A stretch of DNA of 64,000 nt from Limosilactobacillus sp. WILCCON 0051 (GTDB lineage Bacteria > Bacillota > Bacilli > Lactobacillales > Lactobacillaceae). Location of the stretch: assembly GCF_039955095.1 (NCBI RefSeq), contig NZ_CP154878.1:806001-870000 (forward strand), in the 5' to 3' direction. Both the position numbers and the translations under genes were made by a program. The notes beneath the pieces were generated by a model. It ran no database searches, was not told the origin of the DNA, and worked only from the letters and a program-made list of their open reading frames with translations. This document shows, piece after piece, positions 1 through 45,888 of the stretch (its first letter is position 1; each line of letters begins with the position of its first letter).

Positions 1-323
1 TTTTTAATGGTCAGGCCGGCTTCGCTTTGTTCCTTGATGTGGTACTGCTTGGCCTGGATATACTGATCGACCTGAGAACTGACGATAACTTCCGGCAGGC
101 CTTTACGCTGGAGACGATGATTCAGCTTTTTGATCAAGGCAAGCAGGCTGACATAGGTTAAATCAGGTTTAAAGACACGTTTGACAGGATCAGCAAAGTA
201 AGGAGCCAGAACCTGCAGTGCTCGCTTGGCTGGTAGAGTTTCCAAAGTGTGGCTGGGATCATCAATTAATTGAAACTGGCCTTGTTCATTTTTGATGATA
301 ACGGGATTATCTTTCCTCAGCAT
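1..323 (-). CDS. Unknown protein, N-terminal part only
   Basis: The gene runs off the left edge of the window; 107 codons are visible, beginning MLRKDNPVIIKNEQG. The start codon lies 17 bases inside the end of the ParB-like gene upstream, so the two are probably co-transcribed and translationally coupled in the same operon as the Type III restriction-modification genes. The visible part is charged and has no membrane segment, signal peptide or motif I recognise. Position as the fourth gene of a mod-res-ParB operon suggests an accessory function, and a helicase is one possibility because such genes often follow, but nothing in these residues proves it. The reading frame is open to the edge. 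Confidence 0.55.
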   Translation of the reverse strand, partial: MLRKDNPVIIKNEQGQFQLIDDPSHTLETLPAKRALQVLAPYFADPVKRVFKPDLTYVSLLALIKKLNHRLQRKGLPEVIVSSQVDQYIQAKQYHIKEQSEAGLTIK

Positions 324-1596
324 ACTTATTGAAAAGCTCCTTGCTTAAAATATTCAGGTGACGCATGTAATCTTGCAGCTCTTTGATTTGCTCGCTGCTG
401 ATCTCGCCATAGCGCAAGGTGCCGGCCAAACCGCCATTATTGTTCAGATCTTCATAGTATTTAACGGAATCTTTGATGCTCTTGATGAATTTTTCGACCG
501 ATTCGCCGTTTTTGGCATCCCGCATGTAGGTGTCATAGGTATCGCCGAATTGACTGATGTTATCATTGGCTTCAGTCAGCTGAGTCATCAAATCAGTAGT
601 ATTGTTGATGGGCGATTCCTGCAGCGTATCGGCCAGATCTTCGACGGCATCGCTGACTTCATCGTTGAATTCGTCTAGATTAGGCGATTTAACGATATTT
701 TGAGTGAAATCGCGCATGTGAGTCCGGGCTGGCGTACCGCTTACGCCAACATGAAGGTCATGCAGAATCAAGCCAAAGTATGAATGCATGGTTTCATTCT
801 TTTGAACCTGCGAGTCGTCATCATCACCGAAATTATTGGTCAGTGATTTTCCCATTTCATAAAATGGCGACCAGATTTGATTTTCTTTGATGAGGTGATA
901 GTTGTTTTCATCGGCACCGATAAACTTCAGAAATTCCCGCATGTAAACGGCACCTTGATAGTATCGTTCAGCTTCTTTTTTCTTCATATTGGCAACGTTG
1001 ACATAATCAGCCAGTGTCATCATGGCATCATCGCCGGTTGTGGTCTGGTAGATGTCAACGGCGAGGTCAACTGGATCATAGTCTTCGCGCTTTTCGACGC
1101 CCATCTGAATTGCCAGCTCGAGTTTCTTGATCTTGGAGCGGTCGGTTTGGTTGTCATATGAGAAAGGCAAAATTACCGCTTCAAAGTAGTAGGTTTTACC
1201 GGTCGCCTTTTGCAGATTGCGTAAGGCAGTGTAGCGTCGGTTGCCATCAACGATTCGACCATCTTCAAGTACGTAGCCGCAGATGCGCTGCCCAGATTCT
1301 TGGATCGACTTTTGGGTTCGTTTTAAAGCGGCTGGATTGTTTTGTTCAATCAGTTTGGCTACGAAATCGTTATAGTCTGGCTCAACTGTATCGTTGACTG
1401 GATTGAGTTCATCATGGTAGCCAGCAATTGCCGTTGAGATGCGGCCGTTTTTGTCGTTATAGTACAGATACTTAAGCGGAATGCGATAGACATCCATATT
1501 CTCAGTGCCCAGATTGTTAAGCCTGGTTGGCAGTTTGACGGTCGCGCCGGTCTTTTCAATTTTGCCGGCTTTTTCTAGATCAATGAGTGACGTCAT
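307..1596 (-). CDS. ParB/Srx-like N-terminal domain protein of the restriction operon
   Basis: About 429 residues. Residues around 117-126 (DGNRRYTALR, preceded by LEDGRIV) match the Box-II type motif of ParB/sulfiredoxin-fold domains, which bind or hydrolyse nucleotides and are found in partition proteins and in many defence-associated proteins. The C-terminal half is acidic, probably helical, and unassigned. I chose the ATG at 1596 because AAGGAG lies 10 bases upstream; the frame can be extended by eight codons to a TTG. The start lies inside the last codons of res (17-base overlap), and the stop overlaps the next gene, so it belongs to a tight mod-res-ParB operon. Its exact role there (DNA binding, nuclease or regulator) is not visible. 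Confidence 0.6.
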   Translation of the reverse strand: MTSLIDLEKAGKIEKTGATVKLPTRLNNLGTENMDVYRIPLKYLYYNDKNGRISTAIAGYHDELNPVNDTVEPDYNDFVAKLIEQNNPAALKRTQKSIQESGQRICGYVLEDGRIVDGNRRYTALRNLQKATGKTYYFEAVILPFSYDNQTDRSKIKKLELAIQMGVEKREDYDPVDLAVDIYQTTTGDDAMMTLADYVNVANMKKKEAERYYQGAVYMREFLKFIGADENNYHLIKENQIWSPFYEMGKSLTNNFGDDDDSQVQKNETMHSYFGLILHDLHVGVSGTPARTHMRDFTQNIVKSPNLDEFNDEVSDAVEDLADTLQESPINNTTDLMTQLTEANDNISQFGDTYDTYMRDAKNGESVEKFIKSIKDSVKYYEDLNNNGGLAGTLRYGEISSEQIKELQDYMRHLNILSKELFNKYAEER

Positions 1597-4594
1597 CGGT
1601 TGAAATCTCCTTATTTTCAATTTTTCTGATTAGTTCGTGAACCTCGTCTTCGCTGGTGGCCATCCGATAATAAACGCCTGATTCGCGGAGCTGGTCAAAG
1701 TACTTCTGCTGAATGACGCGAATCTCCTCATCGCCCAGCCGCATATTCTCGGCCTTAGTCTCGATCACGGCATAAACGGTTTGGCCGTCTGTTTGATCGA
1801 TCTTGAAAATGAAGTCGGGGGTGGTGGTTCCATTGTCAAAGCGCGGAATCTTGATGGCTTTTTTCGGCAGCTTGCCAAAGACGGTAATCTGATTACTGTA
1901 GGTTCGTCTAAGAATCATCAGTTCGGGATCGGTACTGTCATAGCGCAGCGGCGGCCGGTCATAAAGATATTTGGGATCGGCGACGGCATCGGCTGAATAG
2001 ACGCCCAGCAGATCAGCCGGCAGCTCGTCGACGAATTCCTGTTTTTGAGCATCATAGATTGAAGTTGACGCCGAAAACTTTAGGGGAACGTAGGAATACT
2101 GTGTCCGAATCCGTTCGTTGAAGTTGCGATTGAACGTCTTGATTAGGTTATTGAGCGTCTTTTCATTGATGTAGTTGGGATCGTTGTTCAGCTGGTCGCG
2201 CATGGTGTTGGTCATTAAGCGATGCAGCAGGGGAACCGGCAGATCTGTCTGCAAAGTGAGCTGTTTAAGAAAACTGCCATACTTCATGGTGCGATAGGCA
2301 GCGCGGTAATCCTGCTGTGTTTCTTGCAGCTTGGCGCCTTCTGCATCGGTACTGATGGTTTGATGAATGATCTGCGGCTGATCGAGGACAAAGATCTTTT
2401 TGTCAGGGTCGCTGAACACGTTGCGAGCCACGTCTTCGGCCAGCTGATTGATCGAATCGTCAAATTTGACCATCTGCCGTTTTGAGAGCTGCTGCCAAAG
2501 ATCCTTGAGCTGATTCCAGTTTTCCTTGCGCAGCTTGACCTTGGTGCTGGCATGCCGCTTTTTGAGGTCGCGGACACGATCCTTGGCTACCAGGGTCTGA
2601 TGCTCAACTTCAGGGTAGAGCTGCAGGAAAGCCTCATAGCCCGACATGGTTTTACCATTCAGCGCCACTTTGGCTTTAAAGTTGTGATTAAAATAGATGA
2701 CTTCATGCTGCCCCAAATTATTGTAGATTTCATTAGCGGTTGATTTTGGATCCAGCTTTGGATTGGTCTGCTGCTTGGCCTTGACGATCAGTTCGACCAT
2801 TTCGTCTGTGAGTTCGTCATGATTCAGCTTGATTGGCGTATCCGTGTTGATCTCGCCAACCAGTTTGGCCGCGAAGTCTTTTTCGTCATAGCCAATCAAA
2901 AATGAAAGGCGGCTGGGCCATTCATCCTGCGTTAGGCGATGGCCGGTTTCATCAACTGGCAGCCGCAAGCCCCGCCCAACTTCTTGAATCTTGCTGATGT
3001 CAGATCCCGAGGTGCGCAGCTTGGCAATTACAAAGACGTTGGGATTGTCCCAGCCTTCCCGCAGCGTCCACTTGGAGAATAAGAAGCGGCGGGTCAGCCA
3101 GTTGCCTTGCTCGTCCTTGAAGCTCAGCAGCTTTTCCTTGTTTTTCAAGATATCGTCGACTTCGGCTTGAATGTCATCATCAGAACTGTTGCGATCTTCA
3201 CTGAAGTAGCCGGCGTAAACGTCTTGATGCTCTGACTGCAGGCTGGCCAGGGTTGCCTGCAGAAAGTCATGATACTGGCGCTCGCGATCGTTGAGGGCAA
3301 GATCATATTTGTCAATCAGTTTGACCAGCTTGGCTTTGAGCAGCTTTTCAAAGTGCGCGGCCAGCCAGCCCTTGCTGTTGTTTTCGCCCCGCAGACTGCT
3401 GATACTGTCGATAAAGAATAATGACAGTGTTTTGATGCGGGGGGCGTTGGCTTCAGATTCGGGGCGCAGAAAGTTCTGCTGTTCAGCCGCGAAATGGTAT
3501 TCCAGAGCCTGGTTAAGAATCTGATCTTGATATGATTCTGCAAACGTGCCGGGAATCAGTTCCATGTCCTTAGCCAGTGCCAGCCCATTGGAAAGCTCGC
3601 GGTCAGTGCCGCCTTCATAGGTGATGTTGCCGGCAAAGCCTGGATCAACGTCGGCCAGATTCTCGCCGATGCCAATCCGATGCTCCTTGCCATTGCGCGT
3701 CAGGATCAGTTCCTTAGGTTTAGCAGCCTTGACTTGATAACGGGCGCTGGCCTGCTGCTCAGACATGTCGGGATAGTCAACGTCAATGCCCTTAACCAGT
3801 CCCTGATTGAAACTGTCAATGGCGTTGAGATCATATTGCGGCCGGTCCCGATAATAATCAATTTTGGTAGTCTTGTTTTTGCCGCGTCCTGTTGTAATTT
3901 CAGGAAAAGTGGCCCCAAAACGATAGATCAGCTGCGGTTTTAATTCCTCAATGTCGGCATAAAACTTCTTACCGCGGGGGAAACGATGCGGCTCATCGAT
4001 AATTACGATGGGGCGGGTGGCGGCAATCGCCTTGACGGGGGATGTCTCGCCGCCTAGAAGCGTCTGATCATAGTCGTCGCGGTGCATTGACTTGGAATGC
4101 AGCATGCCGGCGTTGATCAGCAGGACTTGAATCTGGTTGGCGTTTTGCCGCGTGCTTTCGACAAATTCCATCAGCTGGGCCGGAAAGTTGCGCCGCCCCG
4201 ACTTGGCCTTGAAATCACCAGCATTGATGACGTTTAGCTGCACCTGCGTATTTTCAAAGAACTGGCTGAAGTACTGCTTGGCATAGTCGCTGGTGATAAA
4301 GCTTTTGGTTCCTTCTTTGATGCTGGGGCTGGGTACGGCAATCACAAACTTAAAGAGGCCGTATTTTTGGTGCAGCTCGTACATCAAGCGCGTGTAGACA
4401 AAGGTTTTCCCAGTCCCAGTCTCCATTTTGACGTCAATATTGGCTTTTTCCTGATAGCGGTACTTGACCAGCGGATTAGCGTAGATGTAGTTGGCATCTG
4501 GATCGTTTGAATAGGCGTCCATTCCTGGAAAGGCCTGGTCGATGGCTTTTAGTGCCGCGGTTTGGTGAGGTAGGGTTTCAAGTTGAATTTTCAT
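1580..4594 (-). CDS. res: Type III restriction enzyme, Res (helicase-endonuclease) subunit
   Basis: 1004 residues, a normal Res length. It couples ATP-driven movement on DNA to cleavage when two unmethylated sites are met, together with Mod. Walker A is METGTGKT at residues 57-64; the DEAD-type motif II reads DEPH near residue 200, followed by FGATFP (motif III). Motifs V-VI are in the stretch REGWDNP...QEVGRGLRLP. The C-terminal PD-(D/E)XK nuclease is seen as TPDF followed by IETK near residues 925-945. All key residues are present, so the enzyme should be active. It starts one base after the mod stop codon and has an AGAGG site inside the mod end, so its expression follows that of mod. Confidence 0.93.
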   Translation of the reverse strand: MKIQLETLPHQTAALKAIDQAFPGMDAYSNDPDANYIYANPLVKYRYQEKANIDVKMETGTGKTFVYTRLMYELHQKYGLFKFVIAVPSPSIKEGTKSFITSDYAKQYFSQFFENTQVQLNVINAGDFKAKSGRRNFPAQLMEFVESTRQNANQIQVLLINAGMLHSKSMHRDDYDQTLLGGETSPVKAIAATRPIVIIDEPHRFPRGKKFYADIEELKPQLIYRFGATFPEITTGRGKNKTTKIDYYRDRPQYDLNAIDSFNQGLVKGIDVDYPDMSEQQASARYQVKAAKPKELILTRNGKEHRIGIGENLADVDPGFAGNITYEGGTDRELSNGLALAKDMELIPGTFAESYQDQILNQALEYHFAAEQQNFLRPESEANAPRIKTLSLFFIDSISSLRGENNSKGWLAAHFEKLLKAKLVKLIDKYDLALNDRERQYHDFLQATLASLQSEHQDVYAGYFSEDRNSSDDDIQAEVDDILKNKEKLLSFKDEQGNWLTRRFLFSKWTLREGWDNPNVFVIAKLRTSGSDISKIQEVGRGLRLPVDETGHRLTQDEWPSRLSFLIGYDEKDFAAKLVGEINTDTPIKLNHDELTDEMVELIVKAKQQTNPKLDPKSTANEIYNNLGQHEVIYFNHNFKAKVALNGKTMSGYEAFLQLYPEVEHQTLVAKDRVRDLKKRHASTKVKLRKENWNQLKDLWQQLSKRQMVKFDDSINQLAEDVARNVFSDPDKKIFVLDQPQIIHQTISTDAEGAKLQETQQDYRAAYRTMKYGSFLKQLTLQTDLPVPLLHRLMTNTMRDQLNNDPNYINEKTLNNLIKTFNRNFNERIRTQYSYVPLKFSASTSIYDAQKQEFVDELPADLLGVYSADAVADPKYLYDRPPLRYDSTDPELMILRRTYSNQITVFGKLPKKAIKIPRFDNGTTTPDFIFKIDQTDGQTVYAVIETKAENMRLGDEEIRVIQQKYFDQLRESGVYYRMATSEDEVHELIRKIENKEISTDDVTH

Positions 4595-4595
4595 G

Positions 4596-6500
4596 TTAGT
4601 ACCTCTTGATCAAGCTGACGTTGCCATCAAGCTGCTTTAAGCCGTTTTCCAGTTCACGGAGGTCGTTCAGATTAAACGAGTAGCCAAAAATTACGACGGC
4701 CTGCAGGTTTAATGCATGCGTGCCCAGCAGGTTCAACAGCTTTTCGGTACACTTGCTGCTCCAGTTTTCACGAATTAAGTAGAGCCGATTGTTTTCGATC
4801 AGATTGCCTTGATAGCCGGCCAGATCGATTTTTTGGACGTCAACATCAAATGGATAGCCATCTTTAGCCAGCCATGTTGCCAACACTGTCTGTTCGCCGC
4901 TGGCATTGCCGGGAACGCCTAAAGTCTGACTGGAGAACGAGTTGACGGTATCCAGCACCAGTTCATCGGTTTCAGGTTTAAATTCTTCAATCCGATCCAG
5001 CGTCATGCGGCTGGGCTTGACGACGCGATAGTGCTTGAAGCTGCCATCGAAATCAGCTGGCAGAGTCAGTTCGTTGTCGGCTTTGATCTTAGCAGCAGCG
5101 CGCCGGATGCGTTCCCGCGAGATCTCGTCAATGGAGCGGAAGCCTGCTTCATAGGCGGCCTTACCACCTTTAGTCGGCACTTCAGAACCATCGCTGTTGG
5201 TATGATAGGTTTTTTCAGGCAGCTGCACCATGATGAATTTACGATGCCCGCCATCTTCGGCATTAAGCTGCATGACGGCATCGGCAGTCGTGGAAGAACC
5301 AGCAAAGAAATCTAATATAGTAGCTTGAGAGTTAAAATATGTAAACATTTGTAACATTTTAGCTATCAAGCTAACTGGTTTAGGAGTATCAAAGAAATTT
5401 CCGTTCATAAGTTTTGATAGTTGTGCAGTTGCTGAGGAGGTATAAAATTTTTCATCCCACCATGAATCAACAGTTTTTCTTGATTTTTCAGCTTTTGATA
5501 AATAATATTTCTGTTGTAAATTATTTGCTGTTTTAACTATTAATCCTTGTTTATACATTTCTTGCATGCGTTTTTTAGAAAATCTCCAATAACCACTCAC
5601 ACCTAAAAATTCATAAAACGGATTTCCTTTTTTAGCTCCTCCAGGTCCATCTACTGGCACTAATTTATATTTACCTTTTTCATCTTGGCTATTAAACCCA
5701 GTAAGTTTTGGTGTAGTACCAATTTGTTTCCTATTCTCAAAAACTAACCTCTCATTTTTGGCGTAAAGTAGTATTTGATTATGATTATTCGATACAATTT
5801 TATCATTAGAAATGGAAGCTCGTGATTTATGACATATTTGAGAAATTAAATTTGCTTCTCCAAATATCTCATCGCAAATAAGGCGTAAGTCAGCTTGTTC
5901 ATTGTCATCTATAGAAATAAAGATAACACCATCGTTTGCTAACAGTCTTTTTGCCAGTGCCAATCTTGGATACATAAATGTCAGCCAGGCGGAATGACTT
6001 GCCTTACCTTGAATACTCTTTAATCGAGCGACTTGATCATCATTCATGCCAAACATTTCTTTAAGCTTGTCATCAGAATATTCAAAGCTGTCAGGGTAGA
6101 CGAAGCCATCGCTGCCAGTGTTATAAGGCGGATCAATATAAATAACGTCAATCTTGTTTTGATAGTTGTTTTGCAGATGACGCAGCACTTCAAGATTATC
6201 GCCAGTGAAAAAGAGATTTTGACTGTTCTTGCCGGCGCCGTTATTTTGGTCTTCATCAGGAACGATCACCGTAGTTGGCATTTCACCAGCTTGGCGGCGG
6301 GCATAGTCCTTGCCGATAAAGTTCAGCTGGTAGCCTTCGCCCAGTTCTGAAACGTTCTTTTCTTTTAAAGCCGCTTGGAATTTTTCCAGATCAAAAGAAT
6401 TTTCCCGCGTAAAGAATTCGGGCAGCTTTTCTTTGAGTTCAGCCAAAAAGGCAGAATTGGGCTGCACGGTGGCATTGAATCGTTGGTTGTCGGTTTCCAT
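4596..6500 (-). CDS. mod: Type III DNA methyltransferase, Mod subunit
   Basis: 634 residues. It modifies adenine in a short asymmetric site and provides target recognition for Res. Catalytic motif IV DPPY is at residues 123-126 and the SAM-binding FFAGSS motif is near residue 396; this order (DPPY first) is the beta class typical of Type III Mod. The stretch between them, about 5318-5950, is clearly richer in A+T than both flanks and is where the target-recognition domain lies, so the specificity domain has probably been exchanged. The ATG at 6500 has AAAGGAGG seven bases upstream and overlaps the stop codon of a repeat-containing leader ORF (TAATG), which implies translational coupling and phase variation. 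Confidence 0.94.
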   Translation of the reverse strand: METDNQRFNATVQPNSAFLAELKEKLPEFFTRENSFDLEKFQAALKEKNVSELGEGYQLNFIGKDYARRQAGEMPTTVIVPDEDQNNGAGKNSQNLFFTGDNLEVLRHLQNNYQNKIDVIYIDPPYNTGSDGFVYPDSFEYSDDKLKEMFGMNDDQVARLKSIQGKASHSAWLTFMYPRLALAKRLLANDGVIFISIDDNEQADLRLICDEIFGEANLISQICHKSRASISNDKIVSNNHNQILLYAKNERLVFENRKQIGTTPKLTGFNSQDEKGKYKLVPVDGPGGAKKGNPFYEFLGVSGYWRFSKKRMQEMYKQGLIVKTANNLQQKYYLSKAEKSRKTVDSWWDEKFYTSSATAQLSKLMNGNFFDTPKPVSLIAKMLQMFTYFNSQATILDFFAGSSTTADAVMQLNAEDGGHRKFIMVQLPEKTYHTNSDGSEVPTKGGKAAYEAGFRSIDEISRERIRRAAAKIKADNELTLPADFDGSFKHYRVVKPSRMTLDRIEEFKPETDELVLDTVNSFSSQTLGVPGNASGEQTVLATWLAKDGYPFDVDVQKIDLAGYQGNLIENNRLYLIRENWSSKCTEKLLNLLGTHALNLQAVVIFGYSFNLNDLRELENGLKQLDGNVSLIKRY

Positions 6501-6673
6501 TATGCCACCTCCTTTGCTGAGGCGAAGAAAGTGGCATTAAAAAAGAGATTTCCAGCAAAAAAGGCTAGAAATCCCTTATAAAATGGCTTGACAAAAAAAC
6601 GTTGATCTACATAATCAGCGTGAGTTGAGTTGAGTTGAGTTGAGTTGAGTTGAGTTGAGTTGAGTTGAGTCAT
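6500..6673 (-). CDS. Leader peptide ORF containing the ACTCA repeats, upstream of mod
   Basis: 57 codons beginning ATG directly before the pentanucleotide tract, with AAGAGGA as a ribosome binding site about eight bases upstream. The first 17 codons repeat the period TQLNS; the rest is hydrophobic and aromatic. The ORF ends TAATG, its stop sharing a base with the mod start. With 10 repeat units the frame runs to mod; with 9 it stops right after the tract (CGC TGA), and with 11 it stops four codons later (ATG TAG). The peptide itself resembles nothing I know, so I infer a regulatory leader. A possible -10 box (TATGAT) lies at 6729-6734 on this strand, with no convincing -35. Confidence 0.7.
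   Translation of the reverse strand: MTQLNSTQLNSTQLNSTHADYVDQRFFVKPFYKGFLAFFAGNLFFNATFFASAKEVA
6539..6575 (-). terminator. Intrinsic terminator / attenuator inside the mod leader ORF
   Basis: On the minus strand GGGATTTCTAGC pairs with GCTGGAAATCTC (12 pairs, two of them G-U) around a 7-base loop, followed by six Ts. It lies between the repeat tract and the mod ribosome binding site and is entirely within the leader ORF, so a ribosome translating the ORF would cover it while an early stop would leave it free to form. The T-run is only on the mod-sense side. Confidence 0.75.
6621..6670. repeat. Pentanucleotide tandem repeat, 10 units of TGAGT (ACTCA on the mod strand)
   Basis: Fifty bases of perfect 5-bp repeats. 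Tracts of this kind change length by slipped-strand mispairing, and because 5 is not a multiple of 3 each change shifts the reading frame of the leader ORF. Confidence 0.97.
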
Positions 6674-6813
6674 ATCTCTGTCCTCTTTTAATATATTTCC
6701 AGTATGGATGCGTTGTTTGTAAACGCATATCATAACCATTTTAACAGTTCTTGCTGCCTATAAAAGGTCAGAGTCTAAAATTAAGAAGATTTGGAGAATT
6801 ATCCTTTAAATTG

Positions 6814-6858
6814 AACCCCCAGCTGATTTGCAATTGCTTTGCGAAACAGCTGGGGGTT
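6814..6858. repeat. Perfect 12-bp inverted repeat between the mod and cas operons
   Basis: AACCCCCAGCTG at 6814-6825 and CAGCTGGGGGTT at 6847-6858, separated by 21 bases. Neither side is followed by a T-run. It lies in the divergent gap between the leftward mod operon and rightward cas operon, so a protein-binding site, an insulator or a weak bidirectional terminator are all possible. The rest of the gap (6740-6997) holds no gene I can support. Confidence 0.7.
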
Positions 6859-6971
6859 ATATACAGAAAAAAGTAATTATCAGTCACGCTTGAGGATTTT
6901 CAGTATTTTCAAATTAAGTGAATCCGGTTTCAAAAAATGCGCTAAACTTAAAGGTAAGTGGTAGGGGGAGA

Positions 6972-7001
6972 ATGAGAAATAGTCGGGAATGGTTTAATTG
7001 A
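6972..7001 (+). other. Nine-codon minigene overlapping the cas1 start
   Basis: An ATG preceded by AGGGGGAG opens a nine-codon frame that ends in TGA, and that TGA overlaps the TTG start of cas1 (TTGA). The strong ribosome binding site belongs to the minigene, not to cas1, so cas1 may be translated by termination-reinitiation. Confidence 0.45.
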
Positions 7002-7906
7002 AAAACATTGTCTATGTAGAAAATAAATATTTTGTCGCAGTGACACATAATGGATTCAAATTAACCAATCTTGAAACGAAAGAGAAACACTATCTGTCGT
7101 TTGAGGATGTTGAGATATTGATTTTTGATAACTCACAATGCTATTTGTCGGCTAAAGTAATTGAAAAATGTGCAGATAATAAGATTGGGCTGCTTTTTTG
7201 TGATCGTGGTCATTCGCCGTTATCGGTGTTGGAATCTGTATATGGTCAGCAGAATCGCTTTGAACGGTTAAAATGTCAACTTTCGGCATCAAGTAAAGTT
7301 AAAGGAAGACTATGGAGAAAAATCGTTATTTCTAAAATCATCAACCAAGCAGTCTGCCTTGAAAAAATTGGCGCTGAAAAGGAATCGACTGAGGTTCTAA
7401 AATCTATGACTAAGACAGTGACTGATCATGATGTGCATAACAATGAAGCATGTGCAGCTCGATTATATTTTAAAAAATTATTTGGTGATGACTTCAAAAG
7501 AGGACGGACCACTGATTTAGAAAATGCCAGTTTAAACTATGGTTATGCTATCCTGCGGGCTTTAATCAGGCGCAATCTGGTATTAAAAGGATTCGAGCCT
7601 AGTATTGGTATCCATCACGCCTCAACTGAAAACCCATTTAATTTGTCTGATGATATTATTGAACCTTATCGCCCATTTGTTGATTACTATGTCTTTAAAA
7701 ATATTTTGCCTACCAAACATGAAGCCTTGGAATCTGATGATCGAAAAAACATTATCAAGGTTTTATTGAACAAATGCGTTATCGATAATCATGTGATGTA
7801 TCTGCAAGATGCTATTGAGTTGACTATCGATTCATTCGTTTCAAGTATTGAGGCTGGCAGTTCGGGAAGAATCAAGCTGCCAACCTTTATTGAAGGCGGT
7901 GATTAA
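6998..7906 (+). CDS. cas1: CRISPR integrase Cas1 (Type II-like) of the Type III-A locus
   Basis: 302 residues. Cas1 with Cas2 integrates new spacers at the leader end of the array. Likely catalytic residues are E150 (NNEACAARLYF), H206/H207 in GIHH and the acidic residues of SDDIIEP at 217-223. The segment GIHHASTENPFNLSDD and the length of about 300 residues resemble Cas1 of Type II systems, including the Cas1 beside cas9 later in this window, more than the usual Type III Cas1. The start is TTG at 6998; no strong ribosome binding site precedes it except that of a nine-codon minigene, so coupling is likely. It opens an operon followed immediately by cas2. Confidence 0.93.
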   Translation: MKNIVYVENKYFVAVTHNGFKLTNLETKEKHYLSFEDVEILIFDNSQCYLSAKVIEKCADNKIGLLFCDRGHSPLSVLESVYGQQNRFERLKCQLSASSKVKGRLWRKIVISKIINQAVCLEKIGAEKESTEVLKSMTKTVTDHDVHNNEACAARLYFKKLFGDDFKRGRTTDLENASLNYGYAILRALIRRNLVLKGFEPSIGIHHASTENPFNLSDDIIEPYRPFVDYYVFKNILPTKHEALESDDRKNIIKVLLNKCVIDNHVMYLQDAIELTIDSFVSSIEAGSSGRIKLPTFIEGGD

Positions 7907-7907
7907 A

Positions 7908-8213
7908 TTGGTGCTGCTGTTGAGCTTTGATTTGCCACGCAATACCAAGCAGGAACGCAAACAGGCAAATCTGTATCGTAAGCGCTTAGTGGAGCTGGGA
8001 TTTTCCATGAAGCAATTTAGTCTCTATGAGCGAGAAGTTCTGTCAATCAATACTAAAAACAAATTGATTCAAACATTGAATGAAGAAATTCCCGATGCCG
8101 GTTTAATAACGCTTTATTTGCTTCCAGATGAAGTGAACGATAAACAAGTTACGATTCTAGGCAAAAATGCACCCCACTATACGATTGGCCGGCCGCGTTT
8201 GATAGTTTTCTAA
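7908..8213 (+). CDS. cas2: CRISPR-associated Cas2
   Basis: About 101 residues from TTG at 7908 (GTG at 7911 is also possible); the frame continues upstream inside cas1, but the natural N-terminus is VLLLSFDLPRNTKQER. The SFDLPRNTK segment is the conserved first strand with its metal-binding aspartate. Cas2 dimers bridge two Cas1 dimers during spacer integration. It starts two bases after the cas1 stop with a GAAGGCGG site inside the cas1 end. The sequence (YRKRLVELGFSMKQFSLYER) is similar to the Type II-A Cas2 elsewhere in the window, again pointing to a Type II-like adaptation pair. A terminator overlaps its stop codon. Confidence 0.92.
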   Translation: MVLLLSFDLPRNTKQERKQANLYRKRLVELGFSMKQFSLYEREVLSINTKNKLIQTLNEEIPDAGLITLYLLPDEVNDKQVTILGKNAPHYTIGRPRLIVF

Positions 8214-8235
8214 GGTGATTAGAAAACGCTTTTTT
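8205..8235 (+). terminator. Intrinsic terminator between cas2 and cas6
   Basis: GTTTTCTAA pairs perfectly with TTAGAAAAC around loop GGTGA, followed by GC and six Ts. The first arm contains the cas2 stop codon. It would uncouple adaptation genes from the effector genes unless read through. Confidence 0.75.
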
Positions 8236-8321
8236 AGTATTTATTTGCCTAGTCATTTTTATTAAAATAGATGTTAAAGACGTTTTAGAATAAAATGCCT
8301 AATTATTGGGAGGAGAGGTAT

Positions 8322-9086
8322 TTGAAACAATATGTTTTGACCTGTGCAAAGACGATCCAACGCACAGACCGAAAACTGGCAGTCTTTTTAAATGGCTGGC
8401 TAATGGAGCGCTTAGACTCTGATCTGGTCGATAAGTTTCATCAAACTGGTGATAATCCTTTCTCTGTATATATTGATGAGCAGCCAACAACTGTAAAGCT
8501 GGTGTTTAATGCATTAGATGCTGAAATGGAAACTATCTTTGATGAGTTATTGTTAAATTCAGATCTGAAAAAATTTGAATTTGTCAGCGCCAGTCAAAAA
8601 GAATTTGTAATCTTGGATCGCAACGTGCGCGTCTTAACAGAAAAGGATCTGTCCAAGCAGTTTTATCTTGGCAAATCTACTGGATGGTATGACCTAAAAA
8701 TAGTTTCGCCAATGACGTTTAAATCGCAAGGACATTACCAGTTTATTCCTGATGTCCGTTTGTTTTTTCAAAGCTTGATGCGCAAATATAATCAAGCAAT
8801 TGAAAATAACGAGCAGATTGATGTTGAACTGTTGGATGAGATCTGTAAAAGAACCCAGATTACCAATTATCGATTGCGGACTCAGCGTTGTTTTATTCAT
8901 GGCGGTTTTGTAACCGGATTTTTAGGTTATTTAACTTTTAGATGTTATGGAAGCCAGACCCTAAAAGACTATCTCGGTGCATTGCTGAGCTTTGGAGAAT
9001 TTTCTGGGGTCGGTGCCAAGGCAAGTCTGGGACTGGGAGCAATCCAGCTTAAGAATCAAAAAGAGGAGAATAATGGAAAAGCGTAA
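8322..9086 (+). CDS. cas6: CRISPR RNA endoribonuclease Cas6
   Basis: 254 residues from TTG at 8322, which has GGGAGGAGAGG just upstream; the ATG at 8295 would place that ribosome binding site inside the gene, so I prefer the TTG, giving the N-terminus LKQYVLTCAKTIQ. Cas6 cuts the repeat in pre-crRNA and leaves an 8-base 5' handle. The C-terminal glycine-rich loop typical of Cas6 is SFGEFSGVGAKASLGLGAI. Histidines are present but I cannot fix the catalytic one by eye. It follows a terminator, so it probably has its own promoter in 8236-8320, although I see no convincing -35/-10 pair. It overlaps cas10 by 14 bases. Confidence 0.9.
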   Translation: MKQYVLTCAKTIQRTDRKLAVFLNGWLMERLDSDLVDKFHQTGDNPFSVYIDEQPTTVKLVFNALDAEMETIFDELLLNSDLKKFEFVSASQKEFVILDRNVRVLTEKDLSKQFYLGKSTGWYDLKIVSPMTFKSQGHYQFIPDVRLFFQSLMRKYNQAIENNEQIDVELLDEICKRTQITNYRLRTQRCFIHGGFVTGFLGYLTFRCYGSQTLKDYLGALLSFGEFSGVGAKASLGLGAIQLKNQKEENNGKA

Positions 9087-11349
9087 AATTGATTTATATT
9101 ATGGCTCTTTGTTTCATGATATCGGTAAAGCAATACAGCGAACGACCGGTTTAAAAAAGAAACATCAACTGGTTGGTGCTGAATTTCTTAAGCCTTACAT
9201 GAATGAGAAGCCGATTTTAAATTGTCTAAAGTATCACCACGTTAATTTACGCAATGATAGTTTGGCTGATGATGATTTATCCTATATTACCTATATCGCA
9301 GACAATATTGCCAGTGGTACTGATCGGCGGCCGAATGATGAAGACGTTAATTACAAATGGGATGCTAAAACCCCTCTGCAAGATGTTTTTAATCGATTCG
9401 GGAAACATGCAGGAAAACGCTATCTAAAGCCGGGAGAACTGCGGCTTGATGATGTTCATTCAATTATGCCAACTGATGAGCGCCATGATTACACTCATGC
9501 GGATTACAGTCGGGGTGTTGAACGCTTTAGAGAAGGTTTAATGGCAATCAAGCCTACCGAAGATTATATGCAGAGTGCCTTGAATCTGATGGAAGCTACC
9601 ATGTCGTTTATGCCAAGTTCAACTAATATGGAAGAAGTTGCTGATATTTCGCTATATGACCATATGAAGCTGACGGCGGCTTTTGCCATGGCTATTCAGC
9701 AATACTTGGATTTTGTCGATGAGCATAATTATAAGCGGCGCCTATATACTGGTGCGCAAAAGTTCTATCAAGAAACGGCCTTCTTGATGATGGGCTTTAA
9801 ATTCACTGGCTTGGAAAAATTCATCTATACGATCGTTAGTCAAGGGGCACATAAGCAGCTGCGCAGTCGGGCTTTCTATGCCAATATGCTGAGCGAATGG
9901 TTCATTGATACGCTGCTGAGCGATACGGAATTGACTCGTGCCAACGTGCTGTTTGAGTCTGCAGGCCAAGGATACATTCTCTTAGGGAACACACCAAAAA
10001 ATCGTCGGCTGATAGCGAGTCATTGTGAAGAATTTAATGAATTTCTTCAGGAACAATTTGGTGCTGAGATTCATGTTTCGGTAGGAACGTCACAATTTAT
10101 GTCACTCCAGGTTGAAAAGGGCAATACTTTTGATTCTTATAGTAGGATTTTTAAAGATATTGACCGTGAAATCAATCGTTCTGAGTTGCGGCAGTTTGAT
10201 GCTCGTCAAATTATGAAACTAAACCAGCAAGGCAAGCATACAGGACGAGAATGTGTTGTCTGCCATGCTGTCGCCAGTCTGAATCCTGAAACAAATAAAT
10301 GTAAGCTTTGTGAAAAATTGGAAAGCTTTTCTAAAAATATTCAGCAAGATGATTTCTTTGTGGTTAATGCTGATGAAGAAGGCTTGCCAGTCGGACCAGG
10401 AGCATTTCTTAGCGTTACGGATAAAGAGACGATTCAAAAAGGAGCAGTCAGTGGCAGGATCTATTCTAAAAATCAATTGAATACTGGCTTTAAGCAACAA
10501 ACCTATCTTTGGGTAGGCGACTATTCTGACTTAACCAATAATGAATTCAGCAAATATGCCGATCGTGACTGGACCAAAGGAGATAATCAAAGTGCAGTTG
10601 GGATTAAGCGGCTAGCGGCCTTAAGAATTGATGTCGATGATCTGTATGCTGGCTTTTTGGCTGGATTTGCCAATCAAGGAGAGGGAATGTATACAACGAT
10701 CAGTCGCTATGCATCTCTTTCACGGCGCCTTGCCAGTTTCTTTAACGTGCATTTAAATGCTTTTGCTGAGGGATGTCACGCCACAGTGATCTATTCAGGT
10801 GGTGATGATGCATTTATCATTGGTGCCTGGGATGATATCTTGAAGCTGCTGGCACGCTTAAGAGGATATTTTGCTGATTGGACCGATCAAAAGATGACGT
10901 TCTCAGCAGGAATTTATATGTATCAAGCCACAATGCCGATTAATATCGTGGCAAGGCGAACCAATCAACTGCTGCAAGAAGCCAAGTTAGCAGGAAAACA
11001 TCGCGTTGCATTATTTGACTCATCAATGATTTTTGATGTGGATGAATTTATCAATGATGTCTATTACGATAAATTAGTGAAAATTCGCCAGTTCTTTAAT
11101 AAGGAAAGCAATCGTGGCAAGTCTTTTGCCTACAAGCTATTGTCACTGTTGCGGTCGCGTAATGAAGAAGATCGGATTTCTTTTGCCAGACTGGCCTACT
11201 TCCTATCTCGACTTGAAGATGACGCTGAAGATACAGAGGCGTTTCAGCAATTTAAGGAATCCATGCTTGGCTGGTATGACAATGCCCTCGAAATTAAAAA
11301 AGTTGAAACGGCGCTGTCACTATACATTTATGAAATTCGGGAGGACTAG
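9073..11349 (+). CDS. cas10: Cas10/Csm1, large subunit of the Type III-A effector
   Basis: 758 residues; ATG at 9073 with AGAGGAG just upstream, inside the end of cas6. Domains in order: an HD nuclease with H15-D16 in GSLFHDIGK; a zinc site with C394xxC397 and C410xxC413; and a palm polymerase/cyclase domain with GGDD at 576-579. Both active sites look intact, so on target RNA binding it should be able to cut single-stranded DNA and make cyclic oligoadenylates. No csm6 or other obvious cyclic-oligoadenylate receptor is encoded in the locus, so the second messenger, if made, would need an effector elsewhere. It is followed after six bases by csm2. Confidence 0.95.
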   Translation: MEKRKIDLYYGSLFHDIGKAIQRTTGLKKKHQLVGAEFLKPYMNEKPILNCLKYHHVNLRNDSLADDDLSYITYIADNIASGTDRRPNDEDVNYKWDAKTPLQDVFNRFGKHAGKRYLKPGELRLDDVHSIMPTDERHDYTHADYSRGVERFREGLMAIKPTEDYMQSALNLMEATMSFMPSSTNMEEVADISLYDHMKLTAAFAMAIQQYLDFVDEHNYKRRLYTGAQKFYQETAFLMMGFKFTGLEKFIYTIVSQGAHKQLRSRAFYANMLSEWFIDTLLSDTELTRANVLFESAGQGYILLGNTPKNRRLIASHCEEFNEFLQEQFGAEIHVSVGTSQFMSLQVEKGNTFDSYSRIFKDIDREINRSELRQFDARQIMKLNQQGKHTGRECVVCHAVASLNPETNKCKLCEKLESFSKNIQQDDFFVVNADEEGLPVGPGAFLSVTDKETIQKGAVSGRIYSKNQLNTGFKQQTYLWVGDYSDLTNNEFSKYADRDWTKGDNQSAVGIKRLAALRIDVDDLYAGFLAGFANQGEGMYTTISRYASLSRRLASFFNVHLNAFAEGCHATVIYSGGDDAFIIGAWDDILKLLARLRGYFADWTDQKMTFSAGIYMYQATMPINIVARRTNQLLQEAKLAGKHRVALFDSSMIFDVDEFINDVYYDKLVKIRQFFNKESNRGKSFAYKLLSLLRSRNEEDRISFARLAYFLSRLEDDAEDTEAFQQFKESMLGWYDNALEIKKVETALSLYIYEIRED

Positions 11350-11355
11350 TTATAA

Positions 11356-11754
11356 ATGAACATTAAATTTAAGAAAGACACTTATGTTGATGAAGCAGAG
11401 TCAGTGATTTTAAATTTAAAAGACGTTGATTTCAAGGTTGGTCATGATAAGCTGACCTCGACGCAGCTACGCAATTTATTAGCAATGACCAGCACGATCT
11501 ACAACATTGTAATCAATCAAGGCGTTAAAGCAGCAGAGGAACGTTTAGCATACTTGAGAATTCAATTTATCTATCAAAGCGGTCGCAATCAAGCCGTAAA
11601 AAAACTGGTTGATGAAGCGGAGATTTTAGATATTTTGTTTGCAATTCAAAACGAGATTGAAAACAACGATGAAAAAAAAGAGCGAGAGGACATTATCCGC
11701 TTTTGCCACTATATGGAAGCGTTGGTAGCCTACTTGAAGTACTACTATGAATAG
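11356..11754 (+). CDS. csm2: Csm2, small subunit of the Type III-A effector
   Basis: 132 residues, helical. The segment KLTSTQLRNLLAMTSTIYN near residue 32 and the later LRIQFIYQSGR stretch are typical of Csm2, which lines the inner filament of the Csm complex along the crRNA-target duplex. GGAGG lies about ten bases before the ATG. It sits between cas10 and csm3, the canonical Type III-A order. No catalytic function is known for the family. Confidence 0.92.
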   Translation: MNIKFKKDTYVDEAESVILNLKDVDFKVGHDKLTSTQLRNLLAMTSTIYNIVINQGVKAAEERLAYLRIQFIYQSGRNQAVKKLVDEAEILDILFAIQNEIENNDEKKEREDIIRFCHYMEALVAYLKYYYE

Positions 11755-11765
11755 GGAGGACAATC

Positions 11766-12428
11766 ATGTTATCAAAGATTAAGATTTCGGGAACGATTGA
11801 ATTAGAAAGTGGTTTGCATATTGGGGGAAGTGATGCTTTTGCAGCGATTGGCGCAATTGATTCGCCAGTTATCAAAGATCCATTGACTAATCTGCCAATT
11901 ATTCCAGGCTCCAGTCTGAAAGGAAAAATGCGCTCACTTTTAGCTAAAGCTTATAATGAAACGATCGCCCAAACGCCTAATGATGATGATGAGCGAATTA
12001 CTCGTCTTTTTGGTGCAAGCGATGGTGGCGGTGAAAATGGCGATCAACCAGTACCAGCGCGCCTGATTTTTCGTGACTCATTTTTAAATAATGCCCAGGA
12101 ACTTTTAGATAAAGGTGCCGAAGGATATACAGAAGCCAAATTTGAAAATACAATTGATCGAACGACCGCAATTGCAAATCCCCGGCAGATTGAACGTGCA
12201 ATTCGTGGCAGCGAGTTTAATTTTGAATTGATTTATGATTTAACCGATGAACAAGAAATTGATGAAGATATGCAGACGCTGCTAGATGGCTTTAAGCTGT
12301 TGGAATTAGATTATCTTGGGGGTAGCGGCAGTCGTGGGTACGGCAAGATTAAGTTCATTAACCTGCATGCCGAAACCGTTTTTGGTGATTATGATGCTGG
12401 CGGGATCAACGAAGAATTAGGAGCTTAG
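11766..12428 (+). CDS. csm3: Csm3, backbone RNase of the Type III-A effector
   Basis: 220 residues, RAMP fold. Several copies form the crRNA-binding backbone and each cuts the target RNA at 6-base intervals. The catalytic aspartate of the family corresponds to D32 in AIDSPVIKD, which is present, and the glycine-rich loop is GLHIGGSD at 16-23. IPGSSLKGKMR is the conserved Csm3 motif that contacts RNA. A second glycine-rich stretch, YLGGSGSRGYG, lies near the C-terminus. AGGGAGG precedes the ATG. The gene is intact, so RNA cleavage by this complex is expected. Confidence 0.95.
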   Translation: MLSKIKISGTIELESGLHIGGSDAFAAIGAIDSPVIKDPLTNLPIIPGSSLKGKMRSLLAKAYNETIAQTPNDDDERITRLFGASDGGGENGDQPVPARLIFRDSFLNNAQELLDKGAEGYTEAKFENTIDRTTAIANPRQIERAIRGSEFNFELIYDLTDEQEIDEDMQTLLDGFKLLELDYLGGSGSRGYGKIKFINLHAETVFGDYDAGGINEELGA

Positions 12429-12431
12429 TAA

Positions 12432-13334
12432 GTGATGGAAACAAAAATTTATCGTTTGCGTTTCCGTAATGCACATTTTGGCGATGGCTATCTTAACACC
12501 AGCGTACCTACTTTTGCGGTAAGTCGTTTATTCAGCGCGCTATGCCTTGAAGCATTGAAAAATGACTGTTTGAAAGAATGGATGACAGTTGCTGAGAATG
12601 ACGAGTTCAAAATCAGTGATGCTTTTCCTTATCAAGAACAGCCATATCTGCCAGTGCCAGTTGGTGAGGTAGCTCTTAAAATGGATTTACGGACGCTTGT
12701 TGAAGATAATCAAACAAATAAGGCTGTTAGAGCTTTAAAGTTTGTTCCGGTGGATCGACTTTTGGATCTATTAAATGGAAAGGTGTCTGCTGAAGAACTG
12801 CTTAAAGCTGAAATGAATCTTGCGCAGCAGACCGTTTTAATGAAAAAAGGTGCTGATCCCTATGAAGTTGGGGTAACTGAATATCGTTCCTCACTGTATG
12901 TATTGGCAAGCAGTGATCCATTATTTGAACAATTAATGACTAGTTTACAGTTTAGCGGTTTAGGCGGGAAACGAACCAGTGGCTATGGACGCTTTGAAAT
13001 GGAGATTTTGCCGGTTCCATCGTTAATGGAGGAAATGCTGGCTGACGACAAAGCTGATAAGCAGGTATTACTGACAACGAGCTTGCCTAATGACAATGAA
13101 TTAGGGCTAGTAGTTGATGATGCCAATTATCGTTTGGTAAAAAGTAGCGGCTTTACCTACAGTCCAGATGCCAGTGAACAGCTGAGAAAAGAAGATCTTT
13201 ATAAGTTTGCGAGTGGTTCAGTCTTTACCAGACGATATGCCGGAATGATTGCAGATGTACGGCCAAAAGGATTTGCTCATCCAGTATGGAACTATGCCAA
13301 AGGGATGTTTTATGGATTGGAGGCGGCTAAATGA
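12432..13334 (+). CDS. csm4: Csm4, crRNA 5'-handle-binding subunit
   Basis: 300 residues from GTG at 12432, or 299 from ATG at 12435; AGGAG in the csm3 end fits either. Csm4 caps the effector next to Cas10 and binds the 5' handle of the crRNA. The N-terminal YRLRFRNAHFGDG segment and the C-terminal glycine-rich FSGLGGKRTSGYGRFE are standard Csm4 features, and LPVPVGEVALK is the internal conserved loop. It begins three bases after the csm3 stop and ends in an ATGA overlap with csm5, so the effector genes are translated as a unit. Confidence 0.94.
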   Translation: MMETKIYRLRFRNAHFGDGYLNTSVPTFAVSRLFSALCLEALKNDCLKEWMTVAENDEFKISDAFPYQEQPYLPVPVGEVALKMDLRTLVEDNQTNKAVRALKFVPVDRLLDLLNGKVSAEELLKAEMNLAQQTVLMKKGADPYEVGVTEYRSSLYVLASSDPLFEQLMTSLQFSGLGGKRTSGYGRFEMEILPVPSLMEEMLADDKADKQVLLTTSLPNDNELGLVVDDANYRLVKSSGFTYSPDASEQLRKEDLYKFASGSVFTRRYAGMIADVRPKGFAHPVWNYAKGMFYGLEAAK

Positions 13335-14335
13335 CTGCGGGATATCATGAGTATAGGCTACGGCTGATTGCAATGGCGCCAGTTCATATTGGTAGTGGTG
13401 AAACGTATACTGCTAAAAACTATATTTATGAAAATGAAAACTATTATTTTCCTAATATGGGGAAAATGTATTTGAAGCTACGTCAATATCCTGGCGTAGT
13501 CGAGGCATTTGAAAAGTTTTTGGTAAATCCAAGTCGCCGCAGCAATCGTTTGGTTGACTTTCTTCATCAATATAAAATTATGGATCGGGATTTTGGAGGT
13601 TATAAAATTCCCAAGACGGGTCATGAAAGTGCAAGAAGAGGCCATTTAAATGAGATTCATGCTTTTGTTAAAAATGGATACGGCAATGCATATATCCCTG
13701 GCTCCTCGCTTAAAGGCGCCTTGCGGACGATTCTAGTCAATGAACACTTTGGCAACGACAATATTGCTTGGGGTGGTGTTGACGATATCTTTAATGAGAT
13801 TCGAGTTTCTGATAGTGAACCAATCCCAGTTGATAAATTGAGAATTGTTCAAAAATGGGATTTGAACCGAAAAAAGTTTGAGCCTAAGGGGTTGCCGCTT
13901 TTCAGAGAAGCAATTCGGCCACAAACCAGGATTGACTTTACAATCACAACGACGACTGCACGAGCGGAAAAACTGATTGATCAATTGCCACAAATGGCTA
14001 AACGTTTTTATGAACGTTATGAAAGGCAGTTTTTGTGTGACTTTCCCGATAAATATGTACAGCCTAACCATTTTCTGGCTCCTTTATACTTAGGCGCCGG
14101 TAGCGGACTCTGGACTAAGGTAGATTATGGACATGTTGATCTTAGGGGTATTCAGAGACGTTCTTACAAGAAGATGAAGTTGAAAGGCAAGGGGGTTATG
14201 AAACTGACGCGCTATAAACGCCAATCTTTAAAACGGATCGAGAATGGCAAGCAGGTAAAGTACATGTTGATTAATAATGACGATCATTATTATGAAATGG
14301 GTAAGTGTGGTTTTAAACTTCAAAAGAAGAATTAG
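13331..14335 (+). CDS. csm5: Csm5, crRNA 3'-end subunit
   Basis: 334 residues, RAMP fold. Csm5 caps the 3' end of the filament and takes part in crRNA maturation with host nucleases. It has the N-terminal MAPVHIGSGE motif (residues 14-23) and the conserved IPGSSLKGALRT stretch near residue 122. The start codon overlaps the csm4 stop (ATGA). It is the last gene of the operon and a terminator follows within ten bases. In many Type III-A loci csm6 comes next; here there is only a terminator, 28 bases and then an insertion sequence. Confidence 0.94.
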   Translation: MTAGYHEYRLRLIAMAPVHIGSGETYTAKNYIYENENYYFPNMGKMYLKLRQYPGVVEAFEKFLVNPSRRSNRLVDFLHQYKIMDRDFGGYKIPKTGHESARRGHLNEIHAFVKNGYGNAYIPGSSLKGALRTILVNEHFGNDNIAWGGVDDIFNEIRVSDSEPIPVDKLRIVQKWDLNRKKFEPKGLPLFREAIRPQTRIDFTITTTTARAEKLIDQLPQMAKRFYERYERQFLCDFPDKYVQPNHFLAPLYLGAGSGLWTKVDYGHVDLRGIQRRSYKKMKLKGKGVMKLTRYKRQSLKRIENGKQVKYMLINNDDHYYEMGKCGFKLQKKN

Positions 14336-18527: not shown

Positions 18528-19659
18528 GATATGAAATGATCCTCGTTAAAAGGGGACGGAAACTTTTGAGCATCAGCCAAAGCTTGTGGTGCATTTTGCA
18601 GGATATGAAATGATCCTCGTTAAAAGGGGACGGAAACTATTAATTTCATATTGCAGTTCTTTCAAATCTTTCACGATATGAAATGATCCTCGTTAAAAGG
18701 GGACGGAAACTGTCAACTGTTTTTTAGAAGATTTTTGAAACATCTTCTGATATGAAATGATCCTCGTTAAAAGGGGACGGAAACCCAAGCACGCCGAATC
18801 GTTCCGGCTTGATTTTGTTGATATGAAATGATCCTCGTTAAAAGGGGACGGAAACTAAACCCTAACCACTCCCTTTCGTTTTATTATGGATATGAAATGA
18901 TCCTCGTTAAAAGGGGACGGAAACTAATTGAACGGGCTAATGTCAGCAGCCCTTTAGAAGATGATATGAAATGATCCTCGTTAAAAGGGGACGGAAACCC
19001 CACTAATAACCAACGGTAACGTTGACGATTATTTGATATGAAATGATCCTCGTTAAAAGGGGACGGAAACTGCGTGGATCGTTACCGTGTGTTCAAATTT
19101 CATCATAATTGATATGAAATGATCCTCGTTAAAAGGGGACGGAAACACCGCCCGTAAGTTTTGCACTATTGTTTCTCAAGCACGATATGAAATGATCCTC
19201 GTTAAAAGGGGACGGAAACTGACGGAAAAATATTCGGTTGTCAAAGTTCGATTGAAGATATGAAATGATCCTCGTTAAAAGGGGACGGAAACCGTACCGT
19301 TAGGGCTTAAACCCCGCAGATGTCACCATGATATGAAATGATCCTCGTTAAAAGGGGACGGAAACTCGTCTTCCGCTTCATCGTTGTAAATGCTAATGAT
19401 AGATATGAAATGATCCTCGTTAAAAGGGGACGGAAACTATTTGCCGTGGATTAATTCTTCCTGTTGGTCAAAGATATGAAATGATCCTCGTTAAAAGGGG
19501 ACGGAAACCATTAACACCACTTTGGCAGGCGTTCACCACCCGACAAGGGGATATGAAATGATCCTCGTTAAAAGGGGACGGAAACTAATTTTTTACGGCT
19601 ACCGAATTGTTCAAAATAACCCAGATATGAAATGATCCTCGTTAAAAGGGGACGGAAAC
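18528..19659 (+). CRISPR. Type III-A CRISPR array, 16 repeats
   Basis: Sixteen identical-looking 36-bp repeats beginning GATATGAAATGATCC and ending GGGGACGGAAAC, with 15 spacers of about 33-41 bp. The 3' end would give the 8-base crRNA handle ACGGAAAC, the same as that of the well-known Streptococcus thermophilus Csm system, so the array belongs to the upstream csm operon and is read left to right. The last repeat ends at 19659 and is not degenerate, which is unusual for a true array end; the array continues after 2.57 kb of inserted DNA. Confidence 0.97.
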
Positions 19660-42852: not shown

Positions 42853-42880
42853 ATCGTTAGTTTTTGATTAGAAAACAACG

Positions 42881-45800: not shown

Positions 45801-45888
45801 TTAGATCAATGATGTAATTCGCATGATCTAAAAGAGTTGCAGGCGATGATACGCTTTAGATGGATATTGAATCAATGATGTAACAAGT
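42881..45888 (+). CRISPR. Type II-A CRISPR array, 46 repeats
   Basis: Forty-six 36-bp repeats beginning GCTTTAGATGG and ending GATGTAATTCGC with 45 spacers; all spacers are 30 bp except two of 31 bp (before repeats 7 and 32). The last repeat at 45853 has several changes (ATATTGAATC, AACAAGT), marking the trailer end, so the leader is on the csn2 side. Repeat period is 66 bp. All internal repeats look identical, consistent with an active array. No spacer appears to match another part of this window. Confidence 0.98.

Follow-up and report, generated by a model that had tools for sequence, protein, structure and literature searches.

A predicted phase-variable, leader-peptide-controlled attenuator upstream of a type III restriction-modification operon in Limosilactobacillus

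Attenuators of the trp type have a pause hairpin, and modA is reportedly a phase-variable type III mod gene. The closest described system is the pil1 locus of Streptococcus gallolyticus, where GCAGA repeats are situated in a leader ORF together with a premature terminator, and the reading frame decides whether ribosomes disrupt the hairpin (PMC3894217). According to the accessible part of that paper, the switching was proven with variants, chloramphenicol, and terminator, start-codon and stop mutants; isolates with a leader stop at least 28 nt before the terminator had mainly a low-expression profile, and heterogeneous expression was also seen in Lactococcus lactis (PMC3894217). The repeats of Streptococcus suis ModS belong to the methyltransferase ORF in the presence of a 119-bp linker (PMC6265453), and in the tlrB leader of Bacillus subtilis a NusG-dependent pause gives time for translation of the leader peptide (PMC12288461). 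A primer from 2024 places phase-varying repeats in ORFs or promoters, and the words "leader" and "attenuat-" are absent from the available portion of its text (PMC11475388).

We analysed a stretch of 64,000 nt from Limosilactobacillus sp. WILCCON 0051, called the window below. A type III mod gene in the window is preceded by a repeat-containing leader, and we consider it very probable that the leader acts as a phase-variable, leader-peptide-controlled attenuator of the restriction-modification operon, with repeat number as input. The leader comprises the following parts.

6500..6673, minus strand: leader ORF, 57 codons at 10 units; its TAA (6502-6500) overlaps the mod ATG at 6500 as TAATG
6621..6670, minus strand: (ACTCA)x10 phase tract, ten perfect units
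6681..6686, minus strand: leader Shine-Dalgarno AGAGGA, read from the sequence
6615..6617, minus strand: TGA reached at 9 units (one short), by frame computation
6607..6609, minus strand: TAG reached at 11 units (one extra), by frame computation
6738..6746, minus strand: probable sense promoter with an extended -10 (TGTTAAAAT), placed by eye and not flagged by the promoter scan

The tract begins one codon after ATG 6673, which is likely the leader start, with AGAGGA before it; ATG 6739 of the longest ORF is probably at or before the transcript start. When unit numbers from 1 to 24 were translated, the leader frame was open only at n = 1 mod 3 (10 modulo 3). Nine units led to TGA 6 nt past the tract and eleven to TAG 14 nt past it, which is 37 and 29 nt, respectively, from the terminator hairpin described below. 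These results agree with the initial annotation, which had placed a leader ORF start just before ten ACTCA units and its end as TAATG on the mod start, and had stated that only the 10-modulo-3 frame reaches mod while 9 and 11 units give stops after the tract. As in systems of the pil1 kind, the leader ORF has a start codon and a Shine-Dalgarno of its own and encloses a tandem repeat whose unit is not a triplet; the number of units sets whether the leader frame ends far ahead of the hairpin or continues through it. The repeat is outside the methyltransferase reading frame, and the overlapping leader stop and mod start belong to different frames, so this is not a classical phase-variable mod gene with in-ORF repeats. 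Fusion of the leader to mod was ruled out, as no n from 1 to 24 gave an open fusion in the window.

Common to this leader and to pil1/pil3 are the pentanucleotide repeat in a leader-peptide ORF, the premature intrinsic terminator and the frame logic (PMC3894217). The pil1 and pil3 loci concern pili, have GCAGA as unit and are ON in two of three frames, whereas the window concerns restriction-modification, has ACTCA and is predicted ON in one of three. The pil1 stem-loop is located approximately 130 bp before pilA and an overlap of leader and gene is not described in the accessible part of the paper, while here the leader stop overlaps the first gene (PMC3894217). The suggestion in the initial annotation that a separate leader with an attenuator would be a different mechanism from known phase-variable mod genes was right as to the repeat being outside the mod ORF, but a precedent exists in S. 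gallolyticus pil1/pil3 (PMC3894217). In ModS, as here, a slipping repeat sets the ON or OFF state of a type III methyltransferase, but the ModS repeat is in the methyltransferase ORF and the present one in a separate leader (PMC6265453); transcription of the whole operon is therefore predicted to switch. The leader also resembles tlrB, which has a leader peptide, a NusG-dependent pause and both transcription and translation attenuation (PMC12288461); in the window the pause is a candidate and the attenuation predicted. The input is tylosin in tlrB and would be repeat number in the window. Likewise, the position of the ribosome on the leader peptide decides terminator folding in trp-type attenuators (PMC3894217) and is predicted to do so here. 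Trp-type attenuators sense amino acids, whereas the present leader would be a heritable frame switch.

Folding and pattern searches gave five further features, three of which were absent from the initial annotation (the Shine-Dalgarno hairpin, the small hairpin after the tract and the antisense promoter-like site).

6543..6577, minus strand: putative intrinsic terminator hairpin, 14 bp with T tail, the T run ending at 6539
6599..6621, minus strand: P1, a 23-nt hairpin directly after the tract, proposed as pause hairpin; weak alone, with covariation across 13 leaders
6588..6598, minus strand: conserved core TTTTTTGTCAA, a T-rich motif resembling a NusG pause and the next bases, from core comparison, with pause geometry as given in the accessible part of PMC12288461
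6588..6615, plus strand: antisense sigma-A-like promoter TTGACA-16-CATAAT directed into the tract, from promoter scan and pattern count
6502..6537, minus strand: 13-bp hairpin pairing the mod Shine-Dalgarno (AAAGGAGG, 6515-6508), from folding

The terminator hairpin had a folding energy of -17.7 kcal/mol (z -5.2), and none of 200 shuffles was as stable, in line with the earlier claim of an intrinsic terminator inside the leader after the repeats. Terminator-like sites in 1400-7300 numbered 5 against 7.3 expected, and the one at 6577-6543 had by far the longest stem. Sequence and folding thus place an intrinsic terminator between the leader start and the first gene, as in pil1. The entire stretch 6498-6740 folded with z = -5.85. 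The hairpin that fully pairs the mod Shine-Dalgarno had z -5.9 and was likewise unmatched in 200 shuffles, while P1 in the window alone was weak (28 of 200 shuffles as stable). The pattern TTGACAN{16,17}NATAAT matched once in the window, where 0.13 matches were expected and 13 of 100 shuffles had at least one. A strong inverted repeat, CCCCCAGCTG ... CAGCTGGGGG, at 6814-6858 between the leader and cas1, is possibly a bidirectional terminator.

The genes behind the leader are arranged as follows.

4596..6500, minus strand: mod, type III methyltransferase, from family matches
1580..4594, minus strand: res, type III restriction subunit, from family matches
307..1620, minus strand: 437-aa ORF overlapping the end of res, without a confident family
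3..323, minus strand: next codirectional ORF, running off the window, from the ORF list

With mod and res in tandem the locus is a type III restriction-modification system. On the minus strand mod, res and two more ORFs follow one another with abutting or overlapping ends, so that a single switch would govern all four; the operon layout given in the initial annotation was thereby confirmed. A type III CRISPR locus (6998-14335, with Cas1 and Cas10/Csm1-type matches) is divergent from the mod operon, and the antisense promoter-like site therefore points toward it. Two sets of spaced repeats of about 66-74 bp, at 18602-19512 and 42879-45883, look like CRISPR arrays; their repeats differ.

The initial annotation needs a second correction besides the pil1/pil3 precedent, as the leader is a family member with two more copies in its own genome. 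A search of this genome for four ACTCA units gave exactly two further tracts, each in a homologous leader. The gene behind one sister leader encodes a 1244-aa methyltransferase-specificity fusion; behind the other there is a methyltransferase gene (645 or 662 aa depending on the start) and then a specificity gene. All three downstream genes match methyltransferase families, and the best PADLOC names for the methyltransferases at the sister loci are type IIG. The sister tracts have 11 and 12 units and are predicted OFF, while the mod locus is predicted ON by its frame in the sequenced genome.

Among 396 Lactobacillaceae genomes, a search by repeat only returned six leaders in 4 genomes, all six with the core, and a search by core only returned 8 genomes and revealed the further units CACAA and CAGAA. 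A scan of a collection of named species for ACTCA tracts with a partial core gave 7 stretches, of which 6 were real: L. fastidiosus, L. equigenerosi, L. mucosae, L. ruminis and two in a record named 'Faecalicatena absiana' (L034, L035). This Lachnospiraceae name was not taken as a sign of spread beyond Lactobacillales, because the genome groups with Lactobacillaceae: the family around it includes a locus that also occurs in the Lactobacillaceae set (G845 = G076). L037 and L040, with only two units, were chance matches. Tract length, which the initial annotation had proposed to count in relatives, was 10 in the window (ON) and 11 in L. mucosae (OFF); the variation was seen between species-level genomes only, and none was seen within one strain. 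By mod homology an ortholog was found in 4 of 47 genomes of the genus, three of them with the leader. Genome G003 (L164), found in this way, has an ACACA x17 leader with the core, and G012 has the mod ortholog without a leader and, by eye, an HTH-like gene upstream.

A covariance model led to leaders in another genus of the order, g43, which is probably Streptococcus. Searches of named phage and plasmid records for g43 returned distant methyltransferases in one case and no match in three. A pattern search there matched 102 of 177 genomes, mostly uninspected, and leaders were confirmed in at least 17 of the 177. The units in g43 were of 7 nt (AGCTCAC), 8 nt and 5 nt (ATCAA). Out of 25 g43 loci inspected, which were picked by resemblance, 19 had at least four units and six did not (L085, L086, L113, L115, L127, L128). 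L086 and L115 retain the core with only one or two 7-nt units and are perhaps contracted and no longer switching. Inspection of 28 loci from the R1 model (L053-L080; rough E-values) gave tracts in 4 and none in 24, and several of the latter read as opposite-strand promoters or plain terminators. Genome G876 has two leaders with 4-nt units, one tract containing a run of N; in its leader L153, with 24 CACT units, the frame leads into mod-like sequence that soon meets a stop, and this mod-like gene looks broken. GCAGA tracts occurred in 4 of 177 genomes, none recognised as a pil1 carrier. Two g43 leaders with GCAGA units and, by eye, terminator-like inverted repeats (L133, L134) lacked TTTGTCAA within 300 nt and are probably further pil1-type leaders, pil1 itself being compared by description only. 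When one sister leader was compared by blastn with plasmid and phage sequences (E <= 0.01), nothing matched, and Rfam gave three matches, all to eukaryotic families and below the gathering score.

The searches yielded a catalogue of 38 leaders, each having four or more units; Lactobacillaceae contributed 15 and g43 contributed 23, and G003 was kept outside the counts. Most of them were found with core-containing patterns, which makes the invariance of the core partly a matter of construction; the six repeat-only leaders and G003 are free of this bias. The leader start was taken heuristically as the nearest ATG. Exactly one frame passed the core in all 38 leaders, and the two OFF stops were 8 nt apart at the identical place in each; the search pattern imposed the first of these stops (TRA) but not the second (TAR). 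Unit lengths were 4, 5, 7 or 8 nt, none a multiple of three (lengths searched: 4, 5, 7, 8 or 3 to 9). For the 27 leaders with a known start, 10 were predicted ON and 17 OFF, which is near the one in three of random phase. A hairpin with a T-rich tail followed in 34 of 35 distinct downstream stretches, and for none of the 34 did more than 2 of 60 dinucleotide shuffles perform equally well; the threshold was at least four T in the first six tail bases, and several tails outside Lactobacillaceae were weak (L053, L120, L122). The hairpin sequences differ among leaders. In 33 leaders the distances from the ends of the two OFF stops to the hairpin downstream are 26-34 and 34-42 nt; in L154 they are 48 and 56 nt. 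The sole exception of the 35 was L033 of L. fastidiosus, with a leader present and no terminator hairpin. This leader (L033:2335-2430) has 24 units and is predicted ON, a possible escape from the switch.

A downstream gene was counted if an ORF of 120 aa or more began no further than 60 nt from the leader stop. Such genes were found for 34 of the 38 leaders; relative to the leader stop they start at -12 to +6 nt in 33 cases and at +8 in one. No ORF of 120 aa was found near the leader stop in the other four (L036 and L042, where the sequence ends too soon, and L117 and L035, where it continues). From the 31 downstream proteins outside the own genome, 20 were scanned, near-duplicates being omitted, and 14 matched methyltransferase families. 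The protein following L034 is an SNF2-type helicase, and inspection by eye showed ORFs resembling type III mod and res beyond it. Five of the 20 had no Pfam match, among them those of L065 and L074, where an NPPY-type motif was recognised by eye.

The core following the tract was compared among the leaders. Across 13 leaders the pairing of P1 is kept, with 88.5% of cells paired and a covariation value of 0.241 against 0.053 in shuffles; none of 500 shuffles reached it, slid controls stayed at or below 0.085, and three of six pairs were changed on both sides. In 23 of 28 distinct cores a gap of 0-2 nt separates P1 from the T-rich motif behind it, and in 21 of the 28 P1 exceeded mononucleotide shuffles in stability (p <= 0.05), with 0.053 in the window; the T-rich motif was one base off TTNTTT in four of these cores. 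According to a review, NusG pauses combine TTNTTT at -11 to -6 with a hairpin lying 11-12 nt ahead of the RNA 3' end (PMC12288461); judged by sequence the geometry of the core is close to this, making it a candidate pause site. Read backwards, the core is TTGACA-N16/17-NATAAT in 27 of 30 distinct cores, with a 19-nt spacer in three. The core thus fits a NusG-type pause, an antisense promoter, or both. The reading phase of TTTGTCAA was 0 in the 15 Lactobacillaceae leaders and 1 in the 23 g43 leaders; because of this difference the core is conserved as nucleic acid and not as peptide, and a conserved leader peptide acting in trans was ruled out.

The overlap or abutment of leader stop and gene start in 33 of 34 leaders, and the complete pairing of the mod Shine-Dalgarno in its 13-bp hairpin, could also mean that the switch is one of translation only, the leader opening the Shine-Dalgarno hairpin and handing ribosomes to mod with the terminator-like hairpin in a minor role. 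Burial of the Shine-Dalgarno is indeed strong in the window and several relatives, but it is not family-wide, as among 29 leaders it was below the shuffled mean in 17 (Wilcoxon p = 0.18) and no better than in shuffled flanks, while the terminator-like hairpin is retained in 34 of 35 stretches and in L035 even without a stop-start overlap. We regard this explanation as unlikely.

The core could instead be an antisense promoter firing into the repeat, with antisense transcription, not termination, setting expression or the mutability of the tract, and the attenuator being secondary. The hexamers in 27 of 30 cores speak for this, although they were partly imposed by the search patterns, as do the single such site in the window and the presence of the core in all six repeat-only leaders and in G003, which was found by mod homology. 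We know of no antisense transcript from the core. The 19-nt spacer in three of 30 cores fits poorly, and an antisense promoter leaves the covarying P1 pairs, both OFF stops and the terminator unexplained, which makes it a very improbable account. That there is no switch, and the repeat is by chance in the untranslated leader of a constitutive mod gene, agrees with the leaderless mod ortholog of G012, but is hardly credible given that 38 leaders share one layout although their units, unit lengths and hairpin sequences differ. The recurrence of this layout in homologous leaders with different hairpins and repeat units favours the attenuator interpretation of the initial annotation as a proposed mechanism.

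The anatomy of the leader, its frame arithmetic and its recurrence in relatives with retained pairing are shown by the sequences; from these we infer switching, termination, coupling and pausing as follows. Slippage would add or remove ACTCA units and so set the frame of ribosomes leaving the tract. With 7, 10, 13 ... units the frame is kept, and the ribosome would be over the terminator arms as RNA polymerase passes, so that transcription would continue; the same ribosome would then open the mod Shine-Dalgarno hairpin and terminate at the mod start codon. Either of the two remaining frames would make the ribosome stop 29 or 37 nt before the terminator hairpin, allowing the terminator to fold and leaving mod, res and the genes behind them largely off. 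P1 and the T-rich motif probably pause the polymerase so that the ribosome catches up.

The switching logic is already proven for S. gallolyticus pil1, as described in the accessible part of PMC3894217. The novel elements are the conserved occurrence before restriction-modification genes, the single ON frame out of three, and the nucleic-acid core after the tract. Among the open-access full-text matches listed, no description of leaders of this type before restriction-modification genes was found, subscription papers and preprints being outside the scope. Searches for phase-variable methyltransferases restricted to in-gene repeats would presumably miss separate-leader switches. Should the predictions hold, restriction-modification operons that are independently ON or OFF would be present in many lactobacilli, and probably in streptococci, with consequences for phage defence, transformation barriers, methylome heterogeneity and strain engineering. 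The leaders are also a natural test bed for translation-transcription coupling in Gram-positives, because loci that differ in sequence and repeat unit share the stop position, the pause candidate and the terminator. More tentatively, and with considerable doubt, the tract, both OFF stops, the pause hairpin with T-rich motif and the terminator might form a portable contingency cassette that spread before unrelated restriction-modification systems of Lactobacillales; several loci per cell would switch independently, giving up to 2^n defence or methylome states, and an antisense promoter in the core, aimed into the repeat, might tune leakiness or slippage rate.

Some observations were made on the surroundings of other leaders. 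A ParM-like ORF fragment and small related-looking ORFs, seen by eye at L009:36-548 and 560-931, L009:11760-12005 and L035:3163-3396, suggest a plasmid-derived or mobile setting of these loci. L009 also encodes a 1370-aa Cas9 homologue (L009:987-5099; G000:C1:1045986-1050098; best PDB match E 6.8e-118), which ends about 1.4 kb before the second phase-variable leader. In the alignment its RuvC-I motif reads LSIASD in place of LDIGTN, EMAREN is replaced by NFVRQQ, and the HNH motif DHIIPQS by SPILPMN. Judged by these substitutions, in motifs which we take to have their usual roles, the homologue is apparently nuclease-dead.
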